DNA of 64,000 nucleotides, from positions 62,001 to 126,000 of the forward strand of contig JAUVXE010000005.1 in the NCBI GenBank assembly GCA_030603745.1, given 5' to 3'. How positions within the stretch are numbered: position 1 is the first letter of the stretch; each line of letters opens with the position of its first letter. This DNA comes from Coriobacteriia bacterium. GTDB taxonomy: Bacteria; Actinomycetota; Coriobacteriia; Anaerosomatales; SLCP01. Under the pieces are notes generated by a model. It was not told the origin of the DNA, ran no database searches, and saw only the letters and a list, made by a program, of their open reading frames with translations. The position numbers and the translations under genes are program-made. Shown here piece by piece: positions 435 to 7,078 of this stretch.

Positions 435-529
435 TCACGGTTTGGACCGATGCCGTGGCCGCCGCAACGAACACTGTACGCACACAATCGAGCGGAGCGG
501 ACAGCGTTCTTCCATCGCTAGCGGGATGG

Positions 530-563
530 GAGAAGACCTTTGCACCGGATAGGGGGTCTTCTC
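530..563 (+). promoter_or_regulatory. Hairpin covering the RBS of the small peptide gene
   Basis: GAGAAGACC (530-538) pairs perfectly with GGTCTTCTC (555-563), giving a 9-bp stem with a 16-nt loop. The G-run at 552-556, the only RBS-like sequence before the ATG at 567, lies at the loop/stem junction, so folding could block translation of the peptide. No T-tract follows, so this is not a classical terminator. Confidence 0.45.
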
Positions 564-566
564 ACT

Positions 567-644
567 ATGAAGCGGATCATCATTCTTCTCAGCTCGCTTA
601 CCGCGCTGGTTCTCAGCGGCGGTGCCATCATGAAGGTTGGATAG
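567..644 (+). CDS. Small hydrophobic peptide, 25 residues
   Basis: This ORF reads MKRIIILLSSLTALVLSGGA followed by five residues ending in KVG. A two-residue basic start followed by a single hydrophobic run looks like a bare signal peptide or one short membrane segment. An AGGGGG sequence lies about ten bases upstream, inside the hairpin at 530-563. It sits directly before the HD-GYP gene in the same orientation. It could be a secreted signalling peptide, a membrane microprotein partner of the HD-GYP or DUF5317 proteins, or a translated leader. It is too short for codon statistics, and the call rests on RBS, composition and position only. Confidence 0.4.
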   Translation: MKRIIILLSSLTALVLSGGAIMKVG

Positions 645-702
645 GGAGAACATCTGGCTGGGGTTGTCGGTCCAAGATTCGGAAGCCAGCGGGGGGTAAG
701 TG

Positions 703-1980
703 ATGGTGAGCCATCGAGCCTCCCGCTGGTTTTCCGTCCTTTCATATACTGTTCTTGCTGTCGGCTTGGTGACGGTACTGGTCTCATTCGCCGCCCGGCC
801 CTTCGCCCTGAGTGCCACGTTCGCCGTTCTGTTGATTGCTGCTATCGCTTCGGAGAACGCAGCATTACCGCTCCCAAGAGGCGGTACCACCTCGCTCGCA
901 TACCCCATGATTACTGCGGCCGCGATGCTGTTGGGGCCCGCGGCAGCTGGAGTCGTTGCCTTGTCGTGTACGGTGACCCTGCGCGAACTTCGTCGTGGCG
1001 TCGAAATGAATGTGGCAGCCATCAACGCTGGGCAGCTTGGCTTGTCTGCTACCCTGCCGGCCTGGATGTACGTGGTTCTGGGAGGCAGGATACTGCTTTC
1101 ACCGGATGGCGCCGTGAGACCACTCGCAGCTGCCGATTTTCCCGACATGCTGTTGCCCTTGGCTACGCTGGGGCTCGCCACATTCCTGGTGAACGCTGCG
1201 CTCGTCAGCGCCGGCATTGGACTCAAGAACAGGGTCTCGCCACTCAAGGTCTTGCGTTCAAACATCGCATGGACTTTCTCGTCTTACATGTCGCTGGTTG
1301 TCCTGGGGGTTGCAGTCGCGCAGGTGTTAACGGTTCACCCTGCAGCATTCATCCTCCTGGTGTTTCCATTGGTCGTGTCTCGTCAGCTCTATCAGCGCTA
1401 TCTGGTGCTCAAGGGGACATACCTCGACACGGTTCGCTCGCTGGTCGCTGCGCTGGAGGCGAAGGATCCGTACACGAGGGGGCACTCGGAGAGGGTAGCG
1501 GAGTACGCAGCAAGCCTGGCTGAAGAGCTCGGACTTGAGGAGCGAGAAATCGAACAGGTTCGAATGGCGGCGCAGCTACATGATCTTGGGAAGGTCGCGA
1601 TTGACAGCGAGCTCCTCCACAAGCCATCGCAGCTGACAGCACCGGAGTACGAAGCGATTCAACGACACCCTGAAGTCGGCGCCGAGATTGTTGCTCGTGT
1701 ACCCGAGCTGGCGGCGCTTACTGAGGTTGTGAGGTTTCACCACGAGCGCTGGGATGGGACCGGCTATGCGGTCGGCTTGTCCGGCGACCGAATTCCACTG
1801 CAGGCCCGCATTTTGGCAATCGCGGACAGTTACGACGCGATGACCACTGCGCGACCGTATAGGGAGGCGCTCGCCCCAAGAGAGGCATTGTCCGAGATCG
1901 CCAACTGTGCAGGAAGCCAGTTCGATCCCAGTTTGGTGGGATTCTTCATCCAGCAGAGGCAGGAGGTCGAACAGCGGTGA
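703..1980 (+). CDS. Membrane-anchored HD-GYP phosphodiesterase
   Basis: This 425-residue protein has an N-terminal region of several hydrophobic segments (about residues 12-50, 63-92, 110-130, 148-172, 190-228) and a C-terminal cytoplasmic HD-GYP domain (about 238-420). HD-GYP domains hydrolyse cyclic-di-GMP. The metal and catalytic residues are present: H261 in RGHSER, H293-D294 in LHDLGK, H322 in RHPEVG, H346-H347 in FHHERWDG and D375 in IADSYDAM. The signature reads DGTGYA rather than GYP, a common variant. ATG 703 is preferred to the GTG at 700 because of the G-run at 691-696. It overlaps the next gene by four bases, so they are translationally coupled. Third-position GC is lower than in the housekeeping genes. 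Confidence 0.92.
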   Translation: MVSHRASRWFSVLSYTVLAVGLVTVLVSFAARPFALSATFAVLLIAAIASENAALPLPRGGTTSLAYPMITAAAMLLGPAAAGVVALSCTVTLRELRRGVEMNVAAINAGQLGLSATLPAWMYVVLGGRILLSPDGAVRPLAAADFPDMLLPLATLGLATFLVNAALVSAGIGLKNRVSPLKVLRSNIAWTFSSYMSLVVLGVAVAQVLTVHPAAFILLVFPLVVSRQLYQRYLVLKGTYLDTVRSLVAALEAKDPYTRGHSERVAEYAASLAEELGLEEREIEQVRMAAQLHDLGKVAIDSELLHKPSQLTAPEYEAIQRHPEVGAEIVARVPELAALTEVVRFHHERWDGTGYAVGLSGDRIPLQARILAIADSYDAMTTARPYREALAPREALSEIANCAGSQFDPSLVGFFIQQRQEVEQR

Positions 1981-3131
1981 TTGCCGGGCGAGGCGCGCAT
2001 GCTGTCGCAGTTCTACTAGGCCAGGTGCTTGTGCTGGCTGGAGGAGTGGCGTATGCGTCCGCTGGGGTCCGTCAGACCGTGCCCTCTCTTGAACTAGCTG
2101 TTCTTGCCGTTGCTCTACTGCTGACTAGCCTATTGGATGTGGCCCTGTCGCATGGCGACACAGCGGACACCGACACGGCACTTCTCGTTTCCGGAATGTA
2201 TCTGTTCGGTGCGCACGAGATGATTCTCGCCGTGCTGCTGGCCCGAATACTGGTCCATCTGGCTGTGCCGAGTCGGCGCGCGATTGCGGACTTGATCTCG
2301 GGCCTGTCCAGGCGTGTGGCGGCAATCCTTCTCTGTGTGCCAATTCTGGGCGTGCTGAACTCTGCTCCACCTTCCTCGGAGTCTGGCGTCTACTTGGCGG
2401 TGGCGGGGCTTGGGACTGTGTTTGCCCTAACGCAACTCGTTGCCGGGCAAGTCTCGCGAGTGGGCTTGCGAGGAGACTCGCTCCTGAGACTCTTGGCGGG
2501 GAACCTTTCGCTACAGGGGCCGCTGCTGGCTGCAGGGGTGTCGGTCGCGGTGCTGGCCGTTGTGATTACGCCAGACATGGGTGCCTGGGGGATAGCTCTT
2601 ACCCTGCTGCTTCTCATCTCGATGCGCCAGTCCTTTGCACTGCTACTGGACATTCGTGCTTCGTACCGGGCAACCATTGAGGCACTGACAGGAGCGATGG
2701 AGGCCCAACACTCAGGCCAGCGGGGCCAGGGAGACCGAGTTGTCTCTTCGGCTCGATCCGTCGGGATTGCACTCGGGTGGTTCGGCTCAAGGATTGAACG
2801 GCTCGGTTACGCGGTTCTCTTGAACCACTACGGTCTCACGGTCGGCCCTGACGATGAGCAGGTAGCCGGTCGTTTGACCCGTTACCCGTTGCGGGACGTT
2901 GCCTTCCTGAGACCGGTGCTGCCTGTGCTGAAGATGCTTGAAGGACGAGGCAGCTCGAGTGTCCGCCGTTCCGATCTGAAACTTGCGTACGTGGCAGCTC
3001 GGGTGCTGGAGACTCACTCGCCCGAAAGGGGCACCCAAACCAGCCAGGCAATCGGCGAGTGTTTGGGGTCTGACGGTTGGCTGAGGCGTGCGGAGAACGC
3101 GCTCAAGAATGCTGGGTGTGAGGCATGCTGA
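1977..3131 (+). CDS. Membrane protein with degenerate (pseudo) HD-GYP domain
   Basis: This 384-residue protein has the same plan as its upstream neighbour: hydrophobic segments from about 8 to 215, then a domain beginning SYRATIEALTGAMEA that aligns with the YLDTVRSLVAALEA start of the real HD-GYP domain. The active-site positions are lost. RGHSER is replaced by RGQGDR (Q251), LHDLG by LNHYG (N283-H284), and RHP by RYP (Y303). The HHExxDG segment has no counterpart, and only a remnant of the closing helices remains (LAYVAARVLETHSPERG). It is therefore unlikely to be a phosphodiesterase and may be a regulatory partner or a ligand-binding sensor. It starts with GTG inside the preceding stop (GTGA) and overlaps the next gene by seven bases. 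Confidence 0.8.
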   Translation: MIAGRGAHAVAVLLGQVLVLAGGVAYASAGVRQTVPSLELAVLAVALLLTSLLDVALSHGDTADTDTALLVSGMYLFGAHEMILAVLLARILVHLAVPSRRAIADLISGLSRRVAAILLCVPILGVLNSAPPSSESGVYLAVAGLGTVFALTQLVAGQVSRVGLRGDSLLRLLAGNLSLQGPLLAAGVSVAVLAVVITPDMGAWGIALTLLLLISMRQSFALLLDIRASYRATIEALTGAMEAQHSGQRGQGDRVVSSARSVGIALGWFGSRIERLGYAVLLNHYGLTVGPDDEQVAGRLTRYPLRDVAFLRPVLPVLKMLEGRGSSSVRRSDLKLAYVAARVLETHSPERGTQTSQAIGECLGSDGWLRRAENALKNAGCEAC

Positions 3132-3676
3132 TGCCGTTGTTCATCGCAGGGGCGCTCCTCCTCGTATGGCCCACCGGCGGTCGCTACCGGCGCCTCGGAG
3201 AAGCTAACCTCCGGTGGCCCGCGCTCTTTGTCGTGGGGCTGGCGACCCAGTTCGCCTTCGCGCCCGTTCTTGGGCGGGCTGGAGTTCCGAATGCGCCTGC
3301 ATATGCTTGGCTCCTAGGCGCGGCCATTCTTGTGCTTGCGTGTCAGCTGAACTCACGAGTGTTTGGTCTGCAGCTGGCCAGTCTTGGTATTACGTGCAAC
3401 GCGCTGGTAATCGCAGCGAATCGGGGAATGCCTACGGACGAACAGGCGATTCTAGTCTTGGGTGCCGACCCCCTGGGGGCGGTCCTGCCGGGGACTCTCT
3501 ATCAAATCGCCGAAGAGGGAACCCGGCTGGTGGTCCTTGGTGATGTGTTGCCCGTTCCGGGGCCGCTCCCGATGAGGGGCGTTGCTAGTCTTGGCGATAT
3601 GCTGCTCGTTGTTGGTGTGGCAACTGCAATCATCTGGGCGGCCTCGAACAGGGCGGTGGCCGAAGACTGTGAATGA
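3125..3676 (+). CDS. DUF5317-family membrane protein
   Basis: This 183-residue integral membrane protein has about five hydrophobic segments. It shows the pattern I associate with DUF5317: an N-A-L-V-I-A-A-N-R-G-M-P motif near residues 92-103, then TRLVVLGDVLPVPGP and an SLGD segment before the last helix. The family has no assigned biochemical function. It overlaps the pseudo-HD-GYP gene, so the three membrane proteins form one translationally coupled unit. Their tight coupling suggests one complex or one pathway, possibly linked to cyclic-di-GMP turnover (inference). The family name is from memory of the motif and was not searched. Confidence 0.7.
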   Translation: MLMPLFIAGALLLVWPTGGRYRRLGEANLRWPALFVVGLATQFAFAPVLGRAGVPNAPAYAWLLGAAILVLACQLNSRVFGLQLASLGITCNALVIAANRGMPTDEQAILVLGADPLGAVLPGTLYQIAEEGTRLVVLGDVLPVPGPLPMRGVASLGDMLLVVGVATAIIWAASNRAVAEDCE

Positions 3677-3680
3677 GTGA

Positions 3681-3708
3681 TGATCGATACGGAATGCCGC
3701 ATCGATCA
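3681..3708 (+). terminator. Perfect inverted repeat after the DUF5317 gene
   Basis: TGATCGAT (3681-3688) and ATCGATCA (3701-3708) are perfect complements, and the loop can add a CGG/CCG pair around AATG. It lies four bases after the stop codon and about 80 bases before the regulator's ATG. There is no T-run, so it may be a Rho-assisted terminator, an mRNA end-stabiliser or an operator for the regulator that follows. Confidence 0.4.
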
Positions 3709-3787
3709 GACTAGGATTCCGATTCTGTCGCGTTGCTGCTACCATTCTTGCCGCCCCCAGGACTCCCTCCAGGTTTGGAGGTTACCA

Positions 3788-6700
3788 ATGGATGCGTCTG
3801 TGTCCGACAGATCTGCGCTGTACCGGGGTGGCATCGAGGTCAAGCGCCGGAGGATTCTTCGCTACACAGAACGGGCTTCTCCTTCGGCAGTCCTGATTTG
3901 CGCTCCGTCTGGATACGGAAAGTCCATCTCCGCGGCACAGATTGCCCGAATGGACTGCTTCGGTCGTCGGGTGTGGGTTCAGTGCTGCGGTAGCCGTTTC
4001 GCTGCCGACGCGCTTCTCTCCTTGGTGGCGTCAGAAGTTCAGGCGAAACGGGGATGCTCGGCCACGGGAGATTCGTCTCGTGATTCGAGGGACAGTCTGG
4101 CTGAGGTGGCGCGGGTCTTGGATGAGGAAGCTGAGCGCACGTGCGTGGTCATCGACGACTTGTGCCTTGAGGGAACCGTCACCGATGTTGCCGAACTTGG
4201 AAGACTGTTCTCGATGTGGGGCGGCAAACACACACTAGTGGTGACTACGCGCCTGGTCTCCGACGTCGACGTTGGATGGCTCCGACATTTCACGAGTGTT
4301 GAGGCTGAGGATCTGAAGTTCAGCCGGGACGAAGTGGACGCACTGCTTGGGGAGTGGCTGCCGGAGTCAGAACGGGCGGAGACCGTCGATCGGGTGACGC
4401 AGCTCGCTGGCGGGCAGGCGGCGCTGTTGGGCGTGATGGCCAAGCACTTGGTCATGGGCGCTGGCGAGGGTGCCGGCTTGGACTCGAGAATCGATCTGAG
4501 AAGCTTGCTCACCTCGCTCGCGGAGAGCCAGCTGACCGTCCAGGAATCGGAAGCGCTCGTCGCGCTATCGATATTGGGCACGGCCACTCTGCGGGAGCTC
4601 GGGAAGGTGAGAGAAGGTCTTGAGCGGGTTGACCTCGTGAGAATCTCTAGGTGCATCCCCCTCGTGCAGGTCACGGCAGGTCGGACCTCGGGACTGGCCC
4701 AAGCGTCGGTCCATGCGCTCGCGCAAGAAGTATACGCGTCTTCATCCTTTGCCGAAGCCCACGTGTCTGGCGACATGAACAACCTGCTGAGTAGCTGCGT
4801 GACGGTTCTTGAAGACCGGGAGGAGTACTCGCGCGTAGTTCCGCTCTTGGCTGAGAACCTACCGGAAGAGGAACTCGCAGATTGGCTGTTGACCAGGGGT
4901 TCCCGAGCGGTTGCGGCTGGTCACGCTGATGCCGTCGGACAGGCAGTCGACACCCTGACCCCGACGGTACTGCTGTCCCACCCGAGACTGCTTCTCATGA
5001 GCGCCGAGTATGGCGAGGCATCAAGCGATGTGATGATGCGTGCGGCACGAGCCACTGCAGCCGCAGACTTGGCTAGGTGTGAGGGCGATACTGGGACGCT
5101 CGCGGACGCACTGCTCGCGAAAGCAGAGGCCGCAAAGGACATGGGCAGAATCAGGGATGCGTGCCTTGCGCTGCAGGCAGTCAAGGAGCTTCCTGAGGCG
5201 ACGGTTGGCCGAGAGAGAGCCATGCTGACAGCAGCGCGTCTCATCACGTACGCATCGGGCTCGTTGGATCAGTCGATGGTCGCGAAACACCAGGCGGAGG
5301 TTCGTGCCGCACTTCTTGCCCACGACGTCTCGCTTGACGTGGAGGCACGACTACGTGCGCAACTCGGAGTCGCGGCGTTCCTGTTTGGGCGTATCAATGA
5401 GTCGGTGGCGTACTTCTCCCAGGCTGCAGAAACTGCCAGCGTCCCAGTGCTCTTGCGGGCGATGATTCTTGGGGACCTAGCTACTGTCCTCATGGAGATG
5501 GGCCGCTTCCCGCACGCGTCATCTGTGCTGAACGAACACCATCAGATATCCGAGGGCTTCGGGCTGGAGACCTATCGTGCCTCAGGGGATTGTACCCGAG
5601 CGTGCATTGGGTACTTTGAGGCACCGGGAGTTGCTCTTGAGACTATGGCTGACCAGCTCGAAATTCTGAAGCACGCGGGCGACCGCTTAACGGAGGCGCA
5701 CGTTCGGCTCTACAGGGCCTCGCTCTTGCGCGCAAGTGGCCGTGTCGATGATGCGATGGCAGACATCGAAGTGGTCTTGCGGTACGCGGCCAACCAGGAC
5801 ATCGCCTACCATCAGCTGCTCGCCGAGGTCGAACTCGCGGCCAACTTCCTCGCTTTGGGCGATGATCTCGCTGCCGTCCAGCACGCATCGCGAGTGCGTG
5901 AGGAATGTTCAACCAGGGGTGCGGCTTACCATGTGATGCGCGCCGATATTGTGCTGGCAGAAGCTGCCCGTCGCTGCGGTAGGTTGAACGAGGGCGTAAA
6001 CCGGTTCCTCGAGCATGAGGAGTACATACTTGAAGGAGCCGCAAACTTCGCGATTGCGGTGTATTCGAGGGCGTTCCCGGCGGTTATCCCGATGGTTGCC
6101 GCCGCACTTGGGGCCGAGAGCCTTCCTGCACATCTTCTGCGTATGCTGTCGGATGAGGATGCGGATCGCAGTCTGCAGGCCGGTGCGGAGATTCTACGTC
6201 GAGTGGATCTGGAAATCCTCTCGTCGAGACTCCTCGGTGCTCGATCCAGTGAGTGGATCGCCGCCCTCGACACTACACCGCCCTGCCGAGTTCGCCTGTT
6301 CGGGGGACTCGAGGTCCGAGTGGGCGGCCGGGAAGTGGCCGAAGGCGACTGGCGCAAGCGCAAGGCGCGCCTCCTCTTCGCGATGCTCGTGCTGCAGTAC
6401 GGCACTGATGTGTCGCGTGAGGCGATCTACGAGCACCTGTGGCCGGAGATGGACGAGTCGCGCGCCCGGAACAACCTGTATGTGATCTGGAGCGCCATGA
6501 AGGCGGCGCTGGAGCCGGGTGGCGTCAAGGGCGCCTCATGTCCGTACGTCAGCCACAAGGGCGGGGTCTGCCGAATCTCGACCACGCTGGTGCACTCCGA
6601 CGTCGCGGAGTTCGACCGAATCATCGCCGAGGCCAGGGCGGCCGAGAGCGCGGGCGATGCGGCCGCGGCTCTCCGGGGCTACGAGATGCTGGTCGACGTG

Positions 6701-7078
6701 TACCGGGGCGAACTCCTCCCCGGTGACGCATACGACGACTGGTTCTCCACCGCGCGCGACCGCTACCGGCAGGAGTTCGGCGATGCGATGCTCGCCAGCC
6801 ATCGCATCCTCACCTCTCAGGGTGATCATGCTGCCGCGCTCAGGATGATACGTCGGGCGATCGGTGCGGACGGGTGGCGCGAGGACCTCTACCAGGCGAT
6901 GCTGCGCTCACAGATCTCGATGGGTCAACGTGGAGCGGCAGTGGACACGTACCTGGCCTGCAGGACCCGCCTCGCCGAGGACCTTGGCCTCGACCCCTCC
7001 AGGGAGACGGTGACCCTTTACGAGCAGGTTCTCGCCATGGAGGAAGGACCCGGCGGACCCCGTCCGGCTCTGGACTGA
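3788..7078 (+). CDS. STAND-type ATPase/TPR transcription regulator with C-terminal SARP-BTAD domain
   Basis: This is a predicted cytoplasmic regulator of 1096 residues. It has an NTPase domain with Walker A APSGYGKS (residues 39-46) and a Walker B-like VVIDD, then a long helical repeat region (about 330-800) of TPR type. A winged-helix DNA-binding domain begins near residue 833 (CRVRLFGGLEVRVGG) and a BTAD domain runs to the end. The layout resembles MalT/AfsR-type regulators, but here the DNA-binding part is C-terminal and of SARP type. The start at 3788 follows a clean GGAGG (3777-3781); the frame also opens upstream to 3677 without an RBS. Base composition jumps to the GC-rich genomic norm at about 6280, near the SARP boundary, which suggests a mosaic gene. 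It may sense a ligand through the TPRs and control the upstream membrane genes (inference). Confidence 0.88.
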   Translation: MDASVSDRSALYRGGIEVKRRRILRYTERASPSAVLICAPSGYGKSISAAQIARMDCFGRRVWVQCCGSRFAADALLSLVASEVQAKRGCSATGDSSRDSRDSLAEVARVLDEEAERTCVVIDDLCLEGTVTDVAELGRLFSMWGGKHTLVVTTRLVSDVDVGWLRHFTSVEAEDLKFSRDEVDALLGEWLPESERAETVDRVTQLAGGQAALLGVMAKHLVMGAGEGAGLDSRIDLRSLLTSLAESQLTVQESEALVALSILGTATLRELGKVREGLERVDLVRISRCIPLVQVTAGRTSGLAQASVHALAQEVYASSSFAEAHVSGDMNNLLSSCVTVLEDREEYSRVVPLLAENLPEEELADWLLTRGSRAVAAGHADAVGQAVDTLTPTVLLSHPRLLLMSAEYGEASSDVMMRAARATAAADLARCEGDTGTLADALLAKAEAAKDMGRIRDACLALQAVKELPEATVGRERAMLTAARLITYASGSLDQSMVAKHQAEVRAALLAHDVSLDVEARLRAQLGVAAFLFGRINESVAYFSQAAETASVPVLLRAMILGDLATVLMEMGRFPHASSVLNEHHQISEGFGLETYRASGDCTRACIGYFEAPGVALETMADQLEILKHAGDRLTEAHVRLYRASLLRASGRVDDAMADIEVVLRYAANQDIAYHQLLAEVELAANFLALGDDLAAVQHASRVREECSTRGAAYHVMRADIVLAEAARRCGRLNEGVNRFLEHEEYILEGAANFAIAVYSRAFPAVIPMVAAALGAESLPAHLLRMLSDEDADRSLQAGAEILRRVDLEILSSRLLGARSSEWIAALDTTPPCRVRLFGGLEVRVGGREVAEGDWRKRKARLLFAMLVLQYGTDVSREAIYEHLWPEMDESRARNNLYVIWSAMKAALEPGGVKGASCPYVSHKGGVCRISTTLVHSDVAEFDRIIAEARAAESAGDAAAALRGYEMLVDVYRGELLPGDAYDDWFSTARDRYRQEFGDAMLASHRILTSQGDHAAALRMIRRAIGADGWREDLYQAMLRSQISMGQRGAAVDTYLACRTRLAEDLGLDPSRETVTLYEQVLAMEEGPGGPRPALD

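Follow-up and report, generated by a model that had tools for sequence, protein, structure and literature searches.

A microprotein with a variable tail, paired with MASE9 membrane domains, as a candidate peptide signal for c-di-GMP turnover in Anaerosomatales

The stretch of DNA analysed here (the window) comprises 64,000 nt of contig JAUVXE010000005.1 (assembly GCA_030603745.1), part of a 2.1-Mb, 98% complete genome of the order Anaerosomatales. Near its start lie five co-oriented genes encoding a 25-residue microprotein, MKRIIILLSSLTALVLSGGAIMKVG, a membrane HD-GYP protein with the motifs of a cyclic di-GMP (c-di-GMP) phosphodiesterase, a degenerate HD-GYP paralogue, a DUF5317 membrane protein and a large STAND/TPR protein ending in a SARP regulator. 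A first-pass annotation had proposed these genes as a module with three of them translationally coupled, and we find all five at about the positions it gave, with the HD-GYP gene overlapping its paralogue, and the paralogue overlapping DUF5317, by a few bases. The SARP gene is probably not coupled to DUF5317, because its best start by sequence, an ATG preceded by the Shine-Dalgarno sequence GGAGG, lies 111 bp past the DUF5317 stop. The earlier observation is thus confirmed, and it understates the content of the locus: the module stands, and what had been overlooked is a structured RNA upstream, the division of the microprotein into a leader and a variable tail, and the spread of the system to histidine kinases and GGDEF-EAL proteins.

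The microprotein is a true member of the module, present in 45 of the 51 good Anaerosomatales genomes. Its consensus is M-K-R-I-x2-L-L-[AS]-S-L-A-A-L-V-L-[GSA]-G-G-A (leader MKRI..LLSSLAALVLGGGA), followed by 4-6 variable residues that in this order mostly follow the pattern x-[FWYLM]-[KR]-[hydrophobic]. The leader has Ala at position -1 and a small residue at -3, matching the preference of signal peptidase I. Within genera, leader codons differ by 135 synonymous and 17 nonsynonymous changes, as opposed to 3 and 66 in the tail. A search of plasmids gave no match to the peptide.

The tail and the MASE9-related membrane domain of the adjacent HD-GYP change together between conserved flanks, a pherotype-like pattern. 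This is clearest in two loci of one genus, L098 and L099, whose tails are VWKY and IWKG. Their DNA is 93-100% identical through the upstream gene (here called UP), the RNA element and the leader to its last codon; over the stretch that begins with the first tail codon and covers the spacer and MASE9, identity is only 38-68%, and at the HD-GYP linker it is back to 88-98%. At the protein level they differ by 40% in MASE9 as against 2% in the HD domain, 3% in UP, 3% in DUF5317, 7% in the degenerate HD-GYP and 11% in the SARP. The same joint replacement is seen between L090 and L096 (ALRW/HFRV) and between L093 and L100 (VWKV/YFKL), two copies from a single genome bin. No MASE9 excess is seen in pairs whose tails are identical or almost so (WFRA/WFRA, 20 vs 28%; NLKLR/NLKLR, 17 vs 17%; SLRW/SFRW, 15 vs 27%). 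Among 14 independent sister pairs, those whose tails differ by at least two residues show a greater surplus of MASE9 divergence over that of the HD domain (Mann-Whitney p = 0.002), and a partial Mantel test links tail to MASE9 (p = 0.005); the corresponding test of tail against DUF5317 was not significant.

Table 1. Features of the locus, in window coordinates.
Feature	Position	Strand	Remark
UP, 3' part of a conserved protein of ~223 residues	3..434	+	gene starts ~234 bp before the window
Structured RNA element	469..566	+	covariation on wider alignment; no Rfam match; single copy in genome
RNA helix P1	469-472/506-509, 474-477/501-504, 480-481/497-498	+	
RNA helix P2	512-516/525-529	+	
RNA helix P3	530-538/555-563	+	overlaps Shine-Dalgarno 552-556
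Extended P2, alternative	507-516/525-534	+	mutually exclusive with P3
Microprotein gene, 25 residues	567..644	+	conserved across the order
Microprotein leader, 20 residues	567..626	+	near-invariant, signal-peptide-like; last residue invariant Ala
Microprotein tail, IMKVG	627..641	+	variable; predicted ligand part
Membrane HD-GYP, c-di-GMP phosphodiesterase by motifs	700..1980	+	catalytic motif residues all present
MASE9-related N-terminal membrane sensor domain and signalling helix	700..1425	+	part co-varying with tail; ECF S-component-like fold predicted
Degenerate HD-GYP paralogue	1977..3131	+	lacks metal and active-site residues; overlaps preceding gene by 4 bp
DUF5317 membrane protein	3125..3676	+	Pfam match; invariant residues
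STAND/TPR protein with C-terminal SARP (winged helix and BTAD)	3677..7078	+	likely start ATG 3788

The gene order HPF-UP-microprotein-HD-GYP-degenerate HD-GYP-DUF5317-SARP-SecA recurs at the same genomic place in about 40 complete Anaerosomatales loci from many genera. Within the order the five genes thus remain neighbours, with the regulator among them rather than in a separate conserved locus, and the module proposed at first pass is real. Of 199 genomes from the class, 49 carry DUF5317, and every one of these belongs to Anaerosomatales; the degenerate HD-GYP has matches in 54, of which one, marginal, lies outside the order. Nine loci have the SARP ahead of DUF5317. The remaining Anaerosomatales loci are mostly broken by contig ends; in four genomes contigs break off exactly at, or close to, the leader or the RNA element, a pattern to be expected from coexistence of several tail-MASE9 alleles within a population or genome.

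Beyond the order, we used microprotein profiles built in this analysis and UP as a query for the contigs of relatives. The profiles match other Actinomycetota families, and Clostridia also carry the microprotein; Carboxydocella thermautotrophica is among the cultivable carriers. Several other Actinomycetota lineages have HPF-UP-peptide-HD-GYP-pseudo-HD-GYP-DUF5317-SecA, and Clostridia have UP-peptide-HD-GYP-DUF5317. The recurrence anticipated by the first-pass annotation therefore holds for the microprotein, HD-GYP, degenerate HD-GYP and DUF5317 in other Actinomycetota, and for a shorter block in Clostridia; the SARP is not part of the module there. The constant partner of the microprotein outside Anaerosomatales is instead the MASE9 membrane domain of the HD-GYP, and the pairing persists when that domain is attached to other outputs, namely HisKA_3 or HisKA kinases and GGDEF-EAL. 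Indeed, the microprotein is found in these other families because it adjoins proteins with the same membrane domain. In one Actinomycetota family it lies between two MASE9-type histidine kinases (seven loci); the same seven loci have a repeated promoter- or operator-like sequence, TTGTCCCCC...CCCGATAGT, upstream in place of the RNA element. Nearby, two loci (L225 and L251) also encode OmpR-type response regulators. Another locus has four tandem microproteins (tails GWKPY, RWKPW, GWKPY and RWKPN) together with DUF5317 and a MASE9-like GGDEF-EAL protein.

The pairing also appears in a search blind to the peptide. We searched 119 Actinomycetota genomes with PF20972 (MASE9) and scanned 70 MASE9 loci, with 25 LspA loci as controls. 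The peptide profile reached the threshold of 10 bits at 30 of the 70 MASE9 loci and at none of the 25 controls. Additional MASE9 loci have short open reading frames (ORFs) in the same place, some in tandem, with ends such as STVRW, GATMRF, CARFRI or GAGRKW, several of them of the form x-Phi-R-[W/F/I/Y], and by manual reading at least 40 of the 70 have an adjacent peptide. In four loci the peptide copy is divergently transcribed. On this comparison of gene neighbourhoods, we regard the peptide-MASE9 pairing as well supported.

The window HD-GYP matches HD_5 (E 1.9e-41) and retains HDLGK, HHERWDGTGYA (GYA replacing GYP), the remaining HD-GYP residues and the metal ligands; the pairing of an intact phosphodiesterase with a decayed paralogue, which the first-pass annotation had noted in the window, is seen in every Anaerosomatales locus checked, and its suggestion that the two form a heteromeric enzyme is a hypothesis. 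In its AlphaFold2 model (pLDDT 93.8), the C-terminal half matches HD-GYP structures (PA4781, 4mcw), and the membrane half matches the energy-coupling factor (ECF) transporter S components TmRibU, ThiT and BioY (probability 1.0; TM-score 0.66 by target for TmRibU). MASE9 is thus predicted to have an ECF S-component-like fold, an assignment that is new here. S components have a small-ligand pocket that opens to the outside, and such a pocket would suit a tail of a few residues.

Taken together, we consider it likely that the microprotein is a pre-pheromone whose tail is the ligand of the MASE9 receptor, setting c-di-GMP hydrolysis, and whose translation is controlled by the RNA. The upstream RNA would hide or free the ribosome-binding site of the pheromone gene, and the conserved leader would target the peptide to the membrane or out of the cell. 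A C-terminal tail of 4-6 residues, typically x-hydrophobic-[K/R]-hydrophobic/Trp, would then be released or exposed and dock in an extracellular pocket of the MASE9 domain of its cognate HD-GYP, and binding would set c-di-GMP hydrolysis through the signalling helix. In this scheme the degenerate HD-GYP may be a regulatory partner, DUF5317 a conserved accessory membrane protein possibly acting in processing or export, and the SARP a lineage-specific transcriptional output added in Anaerosomatales. The comparative data support the existence and conservation of the parts, the peptide-MASE9 pairing, the co-variation of tail and receptor, and the RNA structure; we infer secretion, cleavage, direct binding, the direction of the effect, the roles of DUF5317, the SARP and the pseudo-enzyme, and the trigger of the RNA.

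Several observations weigh against this proposal. The match to S components has a weak E-value (0.04), and the window protein scores 14 bits against MASE9, below the Pfam cut-off of 24.3, with two close homologues at 32.5 and 30.9. Positive selection on the tail was dropped as a reading of the synonymous and nonsynonymous counts, four-fold sites of the neighbouring genes being saturated in most pairs. In some lineages the leader departs from a classical Sec signal (MAKFFKMVLKMVGFGSTVRW is amphipathic), so that export there might take another form or be lacking altogether. Outside Anaerosomatales the tail varies rather little (HW[KR]x, STVRW), and there a structural ligand fits as well as a private signal. 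Finally, the tail and MASE9 are adjacent, so that a single recombination tract could replace both; function is nevertheless favoured by a breakpoint that falls exactly between leader and tail in three pairs, and by the recurrence of the pairing elsewhere with different outputs.

The main rival, which we judge clearly less likely though still to be reckoned with, sees the microprotein as part of the MASE9 receptor itself, a small transmembrane subunit with the leader as its helix and the tail docking in cis, neither secreted nor a signal between cells. The length and hydrophobicity of the microprotein are those of a single helix with small-residue motifs, it accompanies MASE9 proteins whatever their output, the basic residue of the tail is conserved, and some leaders are amphipathic. 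However, where 40-56% of MASE9 is replaced, the presumed helix does not change at all and the differences are confined to the last four residues, and a leader that is constant while the receptor changes weakens this view. Near-identical tandem copies would also be odd for a subunit. In six loci the peptides are divergent, their leaders being amphipathic and charged and their tail always STVRW, and they often occur as a tandem pair ahead of MASE9 HD-GYP genes; tandem copies fit a dosage-dependent signal.

The RNA element bears on a second alternative. It is a conserved structure of about 100 nt that contains the ribosome-binding site of the microprotein gene and has the core AGCGRAGCGG...UAGCGRA. 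An extended form of helix P2 excludes P3, which overlaps the Shine-Dalgarno sequence, as expected of a translational switch. Covariation is scarce within Anaerosomatales because the element is too conserved there, but the model built from the RNA of this order finds it in distant lineages, and in the wider alignment 20 of 23 pairs change on both sides (100 cells vs 23.5 in shuffles, in an alignment fitted to the model and thus favouring it). A second model matches MASE9 loci kept out of training and no control loci. A small ORF begins at the 3' end of the element in each of the eight loci inspected, and these ORFs include peptides missed by the profile. In three loci the element is followed by short ORFs that barely resemble the family (MKKIFTAIEHAVESLTKGAPFTKWV, MKIIVAAVERMLSAEAVWAWEGR and one ending in LLSGWQW) and possibly represent further peptide classes. 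Identity with a known riboswitch was rejected, as neither the window element nor its counterparts at 12 distant loci match any Rfam family, and a genome-wide regulon element was ruled out because the genome has a single copy. That c-di-GMP is the trigger is only an attractive guess.

A structured RNA upstream of a short ORF that lies 40-160 nt ahead of the first large gene, with secA nearby in many lineages, could also indicate a regulatory leader peptide, acting by stalling or attenuation in the manner of TnaC or SecM on the downstream operon and functionless as a product. We think this improbable, since the RNA precedes the ORF rather than following it, the C-terminal residues vary in Anaerosomatales together with the membrane domain of the receptor, and divergently transcribed copies exist.

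The first-pass annotation had suggested that the TPR-bearing regulator could read the peptide, which would be reminiscent of RRNPP regulators, whose TPR domains bind peptides, and the SARP gene does stand in the module in Anaerosomatales. The protein has the winged helix and BTAD expected of a SARP (BTAD 76 bits, E 4.4e-21), with a weak Trans_reg_C match, a P-loop GYGKS and weak TPR hits. This suggestion does not hold up, and we give it very little credence: within the searched set the SARP occurs only in the Anaerosomatales version of the module, being absent from other peptide-bearing lineages, and its divergence does not follow the tail, amounting to 11% between L098 and L099 and 17% between L090 and L096, where the tail changes, as against 49-56% in pairs with nearly the same tail. 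It is the HD-GYP membrane domain that co-varies instead. Equally hard to credit is that some non-signalling pressure, such as escape from phage or toxins at a surface receptor, has made a recombination hot spot of the tail-MASE9 cassette, a reading which sharp breakpoints and an exposed receptor would allow and which the exact leader/tail junction and the recurrence of the pairing with kinases and GGDEF-EAL speak against.

The degenerate HD-GYP matches no family at threshold, and its HD-GYP catalytic residues are lost in all loci of the order. DUF5317 is assigned to PF17248 (E 1.5e-21; 77.4 bits vs a gathering score of 25) and has the invariant residues N92, N99, M102-P103, D140, S155 and D158; its AlphaFold2 model (pLDDT 91.8) found no PDB relative in a structure search. 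From its invariant N and D residues no more can be read than a possible active or binding site. An LspA-like peptidase, with similar-looking N/D motifs, was considered and rejected, as hhalign gave a probability of 7% over an unrelated segment and the model has no PDB match. The UP family (~220 residues; also L112:9766-10434) lies next to the module not only in Anaerosomatales but also in other Actinomycetota and in Clostridia, has no Pfam family above threshold and no PDB relative, and may belong to the system.

Variation of a peptide gene together with its receptor has a precedent in Bacillus, where pherotypes arise from joint variation of comQ, comX and the 5' portion of comP (PMC6334282; PMC4008528). 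As with ComX and ComP, a short peptide gene lies beside a multi-transmembrane receptor, and the peptide and the N-terminal membrane part of the receptor vary between conserved flanks. In contrast to ComQXPA, the peptide here is unrelated and has an invariant leader, the receptor is a MASE9 c-di-GMP phosphodiesterase, kinase or GGDEF-EAL protein, and the annotation of the neighbouring genes examined contains no ComQ, ComX, ComP or ComA. The module would thus work like ComX/ComP by analogy, without belonging to that system. In Agr systems a variable AgrD peptide is matched to the membrane domain of AgrC, whereas here no AgrB-type protease is seen and the tail has no conserved Cys for a thiolactone. 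RRNPP systems (Phr, SHP-Rgg, PlcR-PapR) likewise start from a short precursor that resembles a signal peptide and has its active piece at the C terminus, and weak, sub-threshold Phr matches were obtained here; the RRNPP receptor, however, is a cytoplasmic TPR protein that binds imported peptide, and the receptor proposed here is an integral membrane domain. Like other MASE9 (PF20972) signalling proteins, it places this sensor domain on HD-GYP, histidine kinase or GGDEF-EAL outputs; a peptide partner for MASE9, as suggested by the gene neighbourhoods, is new here. The RNA resembles GEMM c-di-GMP riboswitches in lying upstream of c-di-GMP genes, and differs from them in matching no Rfam family and having a different conserved core. 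A literature search, covering sources outside subscription journals, returned nothing relevant on DUF5317, MASE9, TM0504 or c-di-GMP pheromone or peptide-receptor systems, and no MASE9 ligand or structure.

More broadly, and tentatively, the odds being somewhat against so wide a claim, these loci may represent a widespread and hitherto undescribed class of peptide pheromones in Actinomycetota and Clostridia, with tetra- to hexapeptide tails, MASE9 receptors of S-component fold that bind them and directly switch c-di-GMP turnover or kinases, swappable pherotype cassettes, and translation under a new riboswitch class that perhaps senses c-di-GMP. MASE9 in any case gains a genetically encoded partner with a co-varying variable end, so that its function becomes directly testable with synthetic peptides. 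For the Anaerosomatales, represented here mostly by metagenome-assembled genomes, the system would offer natural specificity swaps, an uncharacterised membrane fold predicted at high confidence (DUF5317) and an unclassified regulatory RNA. If the proposal is true, peptide signalling would be wired straight into c-di-GMP hydrolysis, a link that we did not find in the literature searched.

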